Shown piece by piece: positions 30,600-34,310 of a DNA stretch of 64,000 nucleotides. The notes below the pieces were generated by a model, which worked only from the letters and a program-made list of their open reading frames with translations, was not told the DNA's origin and did no database searches. The translations under genes were made by a program, and so were the position numbers. The stretch is from Dioscorea cayenensis subsp. rotundata (lineage: Eukaryota; Streptophyta; Magnoliopsida; Dioscoreales; Dioscoreaceae), in assembly GCF_009730915.1 (NCBI RefSeq), contig NC_052484.1, forward strand, positions 2,322,054 through 2,386,053, written 5' to 3'. Within the stretch, counting starts at the first letter, position 1. Each line of letters starts with the position of its first letter.

Positions 30600-31268
30600 A
30601 TTTCATCAAAATATATATTGCAGAGGCTGATCACTTTCGGATTCCTAAAGGCAAGAAACTGACTTAGACATCTAGACATATCAAAGGAATAATGAGGATA
30701 TTAACACTTAAACATAACTAAGCAACATAAATTCATAACTAGAAATTTCAATGGATCACAAATAAATAAATCGACGATGAGATGTAGCACCATGTCTTAA
30801 GGATTTCTCATGCGTGTGACCAAAAATAAATAAAAAGGAAAGAAAAATATGTAGAAGGCCTAATAAAAGGTAAAAAGACAAATTTAACATTTAAAAATAT
30901 CATAAGTAAAAATCATATGTTGAGAAGTAGGAAATGCTATACAATATATAACAAGTTTCTCAACCTCCTCTTCATCCTCTCTCTCCCTCATCATTAATCC
31001 TTCTCCTACTTCTCTTTGCATGGATATCATGGACTCCTTCACTGCCCATAACCAGGTGATATCATTTATCATATAGATTAATTCTCATTTGATTATTTAT
31101 ATGTAAACATGCATATATATATATATATATATATATAAGTTTGTTAATTATTTTTTTTATTTTTAATATGGATGGCGGGGAAGAGAGGAAGGTAATAACA
31201 AAGGGACAACAACGGAACAAGCATTGAAGTGTCCAAGATGTGAGCCTACAAACACAAGCTATGAATAG
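30600..31268 (+). pseudogene. Captured 5' fragment of a Dof zinc-finger transcription factor gene
   Basis: Bases 31215-31268 read EQALKCPRCEPTNTSYE and then stop. ALKCPRC-TNT is the opening of the Dof domain with the first Cys-x2-Cys pair; the second pair and the rest of the domain are absent. About 160 bp upstream, 31018-31053 reads MDIMDSFTAHNQ followed by GTGATA after a CT-rich leader, which may be the first coding exon and 5' UTR of the same gene. That link is inference, since no acceptor in matching phase was found. Dof proteins are plant nuclear transcription factors; this fragment cannot encode one. It marks transposon capture of host DNA. Confidence 0.75.
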
Positions 31269-33795
31269 AATAATATTAGCATCTTAAACAAAAGGCTGAC
31301 TTTAACTTGACTCAAAGTTTAGGATGTTAATAATGGAAGTTAGAATATTGACTTTCAACACCACTCCCCAAAACAAGCTTTTGGATTAAGTAGATGCTGA
31401 TTAACCAACTCAAAAAACACTCTAACCTATACTTGTGTGCTTCTGCTTTCCTTGCACCGGACATCTGAAATTAATCCGGGACAATAAATAATAACTAGTC
31501 TACAACAATTGAAGTTCATTCTTCAAAAATAAGCACATTTATTGGATTGATTGTCAAGCAACACTATCCATTTGTTAGTTTGAGAAATGTCGCACATAAT
31601 AGAATCTCCTACAAATGCGACCAACGACATATTCTTTCCTATTGCAAGACTGATGTATAATAGTATACAGAATTTTTCGAACGTCTCTTAGTCATCAGTA
31701 TGGTTGCGTAGCAAGGTGAATAATATTAATTAAAGCTTACATTTAACAAAGTCTTCCATGATAAAACTCATTGTTGGTACACATGATATTTCTAACTACA
31801 CACACAAACACACACACCCACCCATCTAGTTACACTGTGAAGTCCAGTTGCATCATATTTAATGAAACCTGAAGAAACCATCAAATAGTCAGTAGCATCT
31901 TCACATAAGTAACCAATAGTTTGACTACATTTGTTCGCACTGAGGTTCTTAATTTGGTATGAGACAAGTAATTAAATGATTCACAACATCCTTTAGAAAA
32001 TCATTCGGTGACAAGTTCCAGATTTCAATAATTATAATTTTAGGAAATCATCATCATCATCATCTTCAAAGCTTGTGATCATTAATCAAGTATTAAGTCC
32101 TTTTTTTTCAATTTTTTATCTTCAAGTTCTTGCACCTTCTTTCAAGTAATGAACACAAAATAATAACCATTGGGATCACCAACCATGAGAGTTAAGCGTC
32201 AAAGAAATACCCAAAATTAGCAATTTGCGTGTCAATCGAGTTTTATATGTTTTTTTGACCAAAGCTAGCTATGGTAACGACTATTGTGCCATATTTGCAT
32301 GTTTTATTCCTTTCTTTACCTTCTCAGTTACCAAGAATAGAATACATATCAAAAACTCTTATCACCACAATGTTCATATTTTTGTATTTGGCCTTCCAAT
32401 ATCCAATTCAAGGTCTTTTTAACTAATCATATTAAACTATGAAATTTCTCACACTTTGCCAAAAAAAAATGTGTTAAATGTACTATATAGCTTATTTTAA
32501 GCACTGAATATATAAGTTACTAATATCCAATTCATGGATATTAGTAGCTGCAGAGAGCTTTGTTGAATGGGATCATAAGAGCAAAGTGGATGGGAAAAAT
32601 GCATGCGTGCGGACATGATGCACATGTTAGCATGCTTTTAGGAGGCGACAAAAGATCATCGCAAGATCTCCGAGATACATTCTTTGGTAAAAAAATCGGC
32701 TTCTATTAAATTATGATGCAAGCTATTTTGAAGTGAAAATAACCATTGTTCAATTCAATTTGAAATTTGAAAGCCCGATCATACTAATTCGGTTTCTTTG
32801 AAGAATAAAATTGATGATAACAAAGAGGAAAGAATATGCATTAAAAGCATGGTTATGAAAACATGTTAAACACAAGCCAATAAGCAAGAAAAGCTAGAAT
32901 ACGAGCTCATGTTAAAACAAAGTTCAATTTTAACTTATATATTCAAATCCTATTTGATAAATCATCAAATTAACATTTGAGGAGTCATACTTACGCTATC
33001 AACCATCAAAAATTAAATCTAATGACCCAAGAAATAATTGAACCTTATCAAGTCTTGGGACGAGATATATTGATGAAGGAATAATAAAAAAATAAACTCA
33101 GCTAGAATTTGAGTACATTTAACTCAAAAGAAATAGAATGAGGAAACTTCAAATAGAATCCTGGAAAACTGAAGATAACAAAAGACACAAATCTATAACA
33201 CTTCCAATATCCAAATCAAGGTCTTTTAAGCACTGAATTTATGTCAACAAAAACTTACTAATATAGCTCACACTTTTGCCAAAAATTATTTTCATCATGT
33301 TAAAAGAAATAATCAAAAGAATAATTAAGGGGAAAAAAAGGCGGGGAATAAAGACCAAGCAGAGGACCTAATTTAATTGCCCTGATCGATCCAATTGCAA
33401 CACGCATGGACCCACATAGACTTTCTTTTTTTGCTTTAGACTTTCATCTTATAAACAATAATAGCATCACTTTTTAATCAAGAAACAGAGGGAAGAACAC
33501 CATGATTCACGACCACCATAAACCAAGGATCGGTTTTAACCAACAAAAAAATTATGGATTAAATAAACAACATAACAAAGAAATCCGAGCAAGAACAATT
33601 GTTCGCTTTCGATGAGAGAATCACGCAATCAAAGAATAACAAAAGTATATCTACATTTCGGATAAAATACACACCATGAGCAGAACACCAGACAAAAATC
33701 TAAAAAGGGATTTCTCCGAATGAAATAACCAAAAAAACCAATTGACTCATCCTATCATCGACCCTAAGCTTCAAAAACCAAAAACCCCAATCAAT
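31269..33795. other. CACTA interior, unrecognised
   Basis: AT-rich DNA with no long open frame and no recognised domain. It may include intron and promoter DNA of the captured genes. The 33480-33795 part is compatible with an intron of the captured glutamate dehydrogenase gene on the minus strand. Confidence 0.5.
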
Positions 33796-33797
33796 AC

Positions 33798-33905
33798 CTT
33801 GATTTCTACGAATGGAATCAATAGGCTCTTTGCAAGCTTTGAATCAAGCCCTAGCAACTTCTCAGCATACCTGAAGTTCCGGTTCGTGGCCGCAAGAACA
33901 AACAT
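33798..33905 (-). pseudogene. GDH: Captured first coding exon of a glutamate dehydrogenase gene
   Basis: On the minus strand, ATG at 33905 opens 36 codons: [18 protein letters not shown], then [18 protein letters not shown], followed exactly by a GT splice donor at 33797-33796. Plant NAD(H)-dependent mitochondrial glutamate dehydrogenases begin [12 protein letters not shown], then GLDSK and SLLIPFREIK, and I know this segment as their first coding exon. The next exon (VECTIPKDDG) was not found within the element. Differences from the family (MN to MF, FREIK to FVEIK) suggest relaxed constraint. It is a passenger fragment, not a working enzyme gene. Confidence 0.85.
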
Positions 33906-33959
33906 AGCAAAGATTCAAGAACAAAAATAGACAAAAAATACAAGAAAAATAGCAAAAGG

Positions 33960-34310
33960 AAGGTAAAAACAAGTACCGGAGCATCGACCATAGGGATCCC
34001 GACCTCGGCTCATCGATCGTGCGGGCGGCGCCCCTCACCGTCCCCTTGGTACCACGTTATCTCTGCGATGATGGGGGCTTGACTGTTCTTAGACCCGCCG
34101 GACGGCCATGCGGGGCGGCGAGTCGGTACAACCAAGGTTGAAGGCTCGTCGGCCGGGCGCTAGCTTCCTTTCTCGTTGCCGAGGGTTGAAGGCTCGTCGA
34201 ATGGGCTCTTGGGTTGGTCGGCAGGTGGTGGGTGGGCGGATAAGAAGACGGAGGCAAAACCCCGGCGCGGACTAGAACTAGGGTTGGGAAATTTTGAGAT
34301 TTGGTGGGCA
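33960..34310 (-). other. GC-rich captured leader, probably 5' UTR/promoter of the GDH fragment
   Basis: An island rich in CG dinucleotides inside AT-rich DNA, lying upstream of the glutamate dehydrogenase exon in that gene's sense. Its low-coordinate end, minus strand GATGCTCCG then GTACTT near 33976, looks like a splice donor of an untranslated or short first exon. Assignment to the same host gene rests on position and orientation. Confidence 0.5.

Follow-up and report, generated by a model that had tools for sequence, protein, structure and literature searches.

The window, the whole 64,000-nucleotide stretch of C14 that was analyzed, carries a 6.9-kb CACTA element (29811-36714) that is very probably a non-autonomous Pack-CACTA transposon. 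Inside the element lie pieces derived from at least six host genes, namely an ABC transporter, a Dof gene, a methyltransferase (upstream sequence), an IAA-amino-acid hydrolase, a glutamate dehydrogenase (GDH), and an auxin response factor (ARF), together with one host stretch from C19. Donors of these fragments were found elsewhere in the genome, and five other copies of the element share the interior, wholly or partly.

Termini and insertion site

A search for CACTACAAGAAA with one mismatch tolerated, for which 0.67 sites would be expected by chance in the window, returned only 29811-29822 (plus strand) and 36703-36714 (minus strand). As in the CACTA superfamily, the terminal inverted repeat (TIR) starts with CACTA and is inverted at both ends (29811, 36714), and subterminal repeats occur in both orientations. 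The original prediction had placed the CACTA ends at 30600 and 34310; none lie there, and those coordinates delimit the interior that the terminal regions enclose. The locus is organized as follows.

29236..29810, plus strand: UDP-glycosyltransferase (UGT) gene, 5' part, interrupted
29808..29810, unstranded: left target-site copy TTT, from comparison with empty sites
29811..36714, unstranded: whole CACTA element, TIR CACTACAAGAAAAACA.../...TTTTTCTTGTAGTG, from the TIR sites and paralogous empty sites
29811..30620, unstranded: left terminal region carrying subterminal repeats of the GGCACGG type, common to L022, L023, L024, and the transposase-bearing element on C18
34320..35250, unstranded: AT-rich spacer, common to relatives and the C18 element
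35250..36714, unstranded: right subterminal repeat array
36715..36719, unstranded: extra bases AA (36715-36716), then right target-site copy TTT (36717-36719)
36717..37914, plus strand: remainder of the UGT gene with one intron (UDPGT, PF00201, 6.2e-16)

The insertion point lies in an exon of the UGT gene. Searching with the right flank gave six matches and revealed tandem UGT paralogues, which in the window lie near 4156, 13487, and 47960. At the position occupied by the element, three paralogues read GAC/TAC-TTT-CTTGG and represent empty sites with a single TTT. The left flank is identical to the three paralogues at 58/60, 56/60, and 55/60 positions, and the ungapped identity of the right flank is 60/60 (13487), 57/60 (47960), and 42/60 (4156), the last figure being lowered by a 3-base shift. 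Joined across the one TTT present in these paralogues, the flanks are continuous; the locus is therefore a single insertion in which TTT was duplicated, with AA added on the right. This 3-bp target-site duplication agrees with the CACTA assignment; the extra AA, which separates the right TIR from the right TTT, produces an offset that is atypical of a textbook insertion and counts against the Pack-CACTA explanation. Apart from the element, the flanks of the UGT copy (29236-37914) rejoin in frame; the 5' part alone (29236..29810) gave no Pfam hit of its own. At least four UGT genes lie in tandem here (about 4156, 13487, 36717, and 47960); the element disrupts one of them and may therefore matter to the host.

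Elsewhere in the window, a FAR1/MULE-like transposase remnant occupies 39315-41534 (plus strand) in two or three reading frames, with a FAR1 match (PF03101, E 4.8e-4) under the Pfam cut-off. Scanning the window for Rfam families and tRNAs gave no hits.

Copies, relatives, and a candidate helper

The genome searched was an assembly of 584,211,761 bases in 2,249 contigs. With the interior as query, at least 48 candidates (40 of them scored) and at least 50 matches were obtained, both counts being lower bounds. At least five further whole or partial copies of the family were found (C11, C9:30.07M, C1631, C9:3.0M, and C799), which indicates that the element has moved as a unit. Nearly the entire query is covered by the C11, C9:30.07M, and C1631 copies, the last running to its contig end; the C9:3.0M copy is without the left quarter, and the C799 copy, which lies at the end of its contig, starts only within the element. 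Ungapped identity between the five copies and the window element is 94.5-96.5%. One-base indels are so frequent among the copies that the reading frames of single copies are unreliable.

Three related elements (L022, L023, and L024) have the ends seen in the window and different interiors, L027 has the right end in common with the window element, and L014 and L029 represent either fragments or additional subfamilies. Target-site duplications were seen in L023 (ACT/ACT) and L024 (CTT/CTT); the flanks of L022 (ACT/GCT) form an imperfect duplication, a point against the Pack-CACTA explanation.

A 10.7-kb element at C18:8,920,104-8,930,805 has both TIRs and a TAT/TAT duplication. Its left end is 86% identical to that of the window element, and the AT-rich spacer and right array are also common to the two. 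A 653-amino-acid ORF in this element contains Transposase_21 (4.6e-79) and Transpos_assoc (2.3e-17) and encodes a tnp2 transposase, so that the CACTA assignment extends to a related, autonomous-like element. Both the GDH piece and the leader at 34066-34310 are absent from it, and the missing leader again counts against the Pack-CACTA explanation. The window element itself showed no Pfam family at E 0.1 in its ten longer interior ORFs, and hence no transposase of its own among them. The C18 element is a plausible helper: judging from the shared ends, the window element was probably mobilized in trans by the transposase of a relative of this kind.

Several of the relatives carry sequences of their own. 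A 166-amino-acid ORF of L022, provisionally labeled TnpA, gained no support for that label from Pfam; a relative of this ORF adjoins the true tnp2 ORF in the C18 element. A DUF4216 match in L030 fell below the Pfam cut-off and was discarded. L024 (C2, about 6,190,876-6,197,647) and L023 (C2) hold 5' exons of a chaperonin gene, presumably of the CPN20 type, in the same sense as the leader, and a Cpn10 match inside L024 and in a host gene on C18 supports this capture. L029 (C3:217800-221900) holds a pescadillo N-terminus (PF06732, 3.9e-17) adjoining an end with CCGTTT-type repeats that seems to belong to a second CACTA family nested there; further copies of the L029 subfamily lie on C18, C9, C5, and C20.

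Host gene fragments in the interior

The following pieces were delimited; percentages are ungapped identities to the donor locus.

30624..30952, minus strand: ABC transporter piece, intron and exon start, acceptor before 30644 (93.9% to L020)
30948..31257, plus strand: Dof piece, 5'UTR, exon 1, intron, and exon 2 start (94.4% to L021)
31264..32063, unstranded: stretch matching the C19 locus L015 (94.7%), with short partial matches on C12 and C2
32144..32451, minus strand: methyltransferase (Methyltransf_29) upstream piece (93.0% to L018)
32540..33201, plus strand: IAA-amino-acid hydrolase piece, exon with its acceptor ending at 32553, and intron (92.4% to L032 on C3)
33227..33674, minus strand: second methyltransferase upstream piece (95.2% to L018)
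33729..33905, minus strand: GDH piece, exon 1 (33905-33798; matching the host genes from 33895 on) with its donor, and the beginning of intron 1
33892..34060, minus strand: ARF piece, exon end (last base 33977), donor, and intron start, abutting the GDH exon
34066..34310, minus strand: GC-rich leader of the transposon family, present at GDH-less loci

The predicted GDH fragment at 33905-33798 was recovered. Its 36-amino-acid peptide gave no Pfam hit and was identified by a PDB search (best match Arabidopsis GDH1, E 2.6e-10) and by the DNA match to three host GDH genes on C16, which runs from TTGCGG (33895) into intron 1. The last exon base is 33798, followed by the donor (AAG/GTATTG, exon/intron). 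Its description as a complete first coding exon stands for the length (108 nt) and the donor and fails at the start: homology begins only at 33895, codons 2-4 are unlike all three host genes, and the ATG may be coincidental. Searching with 33700-33985 gave 13 matches, ten in CACTA-derived places (the window element, five family copies, and four related elements) and three in the host GDH genes, which are 83-90% identical to the query. Two substitutions (GCA and CCT) occur in 10/10 elements and 0/3 host genes, which suggests that GDH was captured once.

The GC-rich sequence beside this exon had been taken for the GDH leader. At 33892-34060 it matches L041 (C25:322000-324200; 82% ungapped), whose 399-codon ORF contains B3 (8.7e-22) and ARF_AD (5e-15) domains and identifies an ARF gene. 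All ten GDH-bearing elements match the ARF piece (72-85%), and L024, without GDH, retains 45 bases of it. The remainder, 34066-34310, gave 22 matches in 20 candidates, GDH-less loci included. Eight GDH-less loci were fetched with short flanks (L030 and L040-L046): five have an AT-rich spacer beside the leader, L040 weakly; L042 and L045 show no such spacer within the short flanks; and L041 is the ARF gene. The leader thus appears to belong to the transposon family, although an older capture event could have brought it in. The reading of 33960-34310 as a GDH leader or promoter was rejected, the sequence being ARF exon end plus a leader common to relatives, and the idea that the whole GC-rich stretch is a transposase leader with its own donor was dropped because the donor belongs to the ARF exon. 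More generally, a GC-rich stretch beside a captured first exon need not be the leader of that gene.

The captured exons could have been recruited, with the leader-ARF-GDH module kept for a useful 5' end or protein, but we regard this as very unlikely. The module recurs in 10 elements, which represent at least five subfamilies, the GDH frame is open in six of the ten (the window element, L012, L013, L014, L023, and L027), and the GDH donor is kept in 6/6 family copies. However, the frame is broken in the other four, the ATG has become GTG in L013 and L027, stops interrupt the ARF frame in most copies, and L024 and L029 have lost GDH. Variable sites in the six open frames fall 2/5/3 on codon positions 1/2/3 versus 1/1/5 in the host genes, a comparison of few sites; with no codon-position signal among these frames, selection on the GDH frame was rejected as a reading.

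On the left side, the predicted plus-strand Dof start (EQALKCPRC at 31215) lies at the start of exon 2, behind a donor after 31055. The piece itself gave no Pfam hit to Dof, and its identity comes from the DNA match of window 30937-31257 to the host gene L021 on C18 (80.7% gapped, 94.4% ungapped over 302 bases, E 5e-80), the protein of which contains a Dof domain (Pfam, 4e-34). Small indels affect the Dof frame in copies retaining this piece. It joins the ABC-transporter piece near 30948-30952, where both donors match over a few bases; the host ABC transporter at L020 carries PF00005, and the captured part is an internal intron/exon border, not a 5' end. Clear Dof homology begins at L021:4379, and the donor has a TATA-like CTCTATAAACC from L021:4366 and its ATG at L021:4438. 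The Dof piece thus starts downstream of the TATA-like box, about 60 bp before the ATG, so that the Dof promoter was left behind.

Between these two regions, the methyltransferase pieces correspond to 287-586 bp (32144..32451) and 937-1384 bp (33227..33674) before the ATG in L018. The hydrolase piece (PDB 1xmb, E 2.2e-5; Peptidase_M20 in the host exons) is an internal exon with its intron, not a 5' end, and has a repeat of about 25 bases on either side (32393-32417 and 33201-33225), which would fit template switching. L016 and its duplicate L017 (C1, 17.79 and 17.39 Mb) hold 32174-33225 (97.2% ungapped for L016) as a module with sharp edges and without the right-hand piece (33227-33674). No CACTA ends are in sight at these loci as inspected, a point against the Pack-CACTA explanation; they may be donor, recipient, or repair filler. 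The ORFs beside them are, we presume, PPR-like.

The Dof and GDH fragments do lie on opposite strands and face inward, and the proposed gene capture is supported and was understated, given at least six host genes and the C19 stretch; some pieces are internal or an exon end. That the element transports working Dof and GDH promoters, as a mobile promoter carrier, is highly improbable. Both fragments come from near gene starts, and the two pieces from 0.3-1.4 kb upstream of the methyltransferase gene mean that host regulatory DNA may be aboard, but the Dof match starts only past the donor's TATA-like box, the GDH homology begins inside the coding exon, and the GC-rich stretch consists of ARF exon end and family leader; neither promoter is included. 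Only the methyltransferase-upstream pieces are candidates for captured host regulatory DNA.

A false composite of two unrelated insertions or an assembly chimera, to which the two-base offset of the right target-site copy might point, has next to no chance of being correct, since the interior recurs in identical order at C11, C9:30.07M, and C1631 (to the contig end), and partly at C9:3.0M and C799, and the paralogous empty sites show one insertion.

Proposed order of captures, possible transcripts, and known systems

Under the Pack-CACTA explanation, an order of captures can be proposed from the presence and divergence of the pieces rather than from a tree. ARF and GDH, common to at least five subfamilies and most diverged from their donors, would have come first, in the ancestor of those subfamilies. 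The methyltransferase-upstream and hydrolase pieces (92-95%), partly common to L014 and L029, would have followed. The C19 stretch and the Dof and ABC-transporter pieces would have been acquired last, shortly before the last amplification: among the matches listed, the Dof and ABC-transporter pieces (94%) occur only in four family copies and the donors, and the C19 stretch occurs in the window family and the donor, with short matches on C12 and C2. Acquisition may have proceeded through aberrant gap repair involving template switches or through the fusion of neighboring elements.

Host splice sites occur in a workable order on both strands. In reading order, the minus strand has the ARF donor after 33977, the GDH donor after 33798, and the ABC-transporter acceptor before 30644; the plus strand has the Dof donor after 31055 and the hydrolase acceptor ending at 32553. 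The GDH donor is kept in 6/6 copies of the family, the ABC-transporter acceptor in 4/4 copies retaining that part, the Dof donor in 3/4, and the hydrolase acceptor, scored by exact pattern, in 3/5. The GT of the ARF donor is kept in 6/6, as CAG/GT only in L012 and L013. Chimeric spliced RNAs from the element are therefore possible on sequence grounds. Transcription, if any, would start from the family leader (minus strand), a methyltransferase-upstream piece, or a flanking host promoter, and would not start from the Dof or GDH promoters, both left behind at the donors. A bolder proposal, improbable though with some small chance of being right, is that this CACTA clade acts as a two-way exon trap behind its own leader, so that its amplification would spread chimeric mRNAs that are driven by the leader and start with host exons. 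The ARF-GDH module would then have persisted in at least five subfamilies by aiding expression or hiding the element from silencing. The donor-bringing exons would then be the ARF exon end and GDH exon 1 and, in relatives, the chaperonin 5' exons.

Pack-MULEs are defined by long Mutator TIRs and a duplication of about 9 bp, show a 5' bias, and in part of cases have captured gene 5' ends. The window element has a CACTA TIR and a 3-bp duplication; it differs from Pack-MULEs in termini, duplication, and the CACTA kind of transposase in its relative, and has captured internal exons too. Among the titles listed on yam and CACTA elements, none concerns gene captures.

Chenopodium CACTA elements with an AP2 fragment resemble the window element in that a short piece of host sequence in their 5' region is common to related elements; in the available part of that report, they retain the transposase region, which the window element has lost (PMC8978399). 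Tgm-Express1 of the soybean wp allele is likewise a CACTA element of similar size (5.7 kb) inside a host gene and, as far as the accessible text describes it, contains exon and intron sequences from five host genes, lies in an intron, and produces chimeric spliced transcripts from the promoter of the host gene (PMC1947982). In contrast, the window element lies in an exon and combines sequences from at least six host genes.

The window element also resembles Pack-CACTA and other Pack-TYPE elements, which, in the portions available, share CACTACAA ends, the lack of a detected transposase, host fragments, and several copies (PMC8903248, PMC13317346). Fragments from more than one locus have been reported there, most in maize Pack-CACTA (PMC8903248, PMC13317346). 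Gene capture by CACTA elements is thus already known; what distinguishes the window element from those described in these sources is a layered history that can be read across subfamilies, its donors, empty sites, and helper candidate all having been identified in one genome. It provides an unusually readable capture record for one CACTA clade in one plant genome, in which donors, copies, and empty sites can be named along with a capture order and a plausible source of transposase, and against which models of gene acquisition by such elements can be tested.
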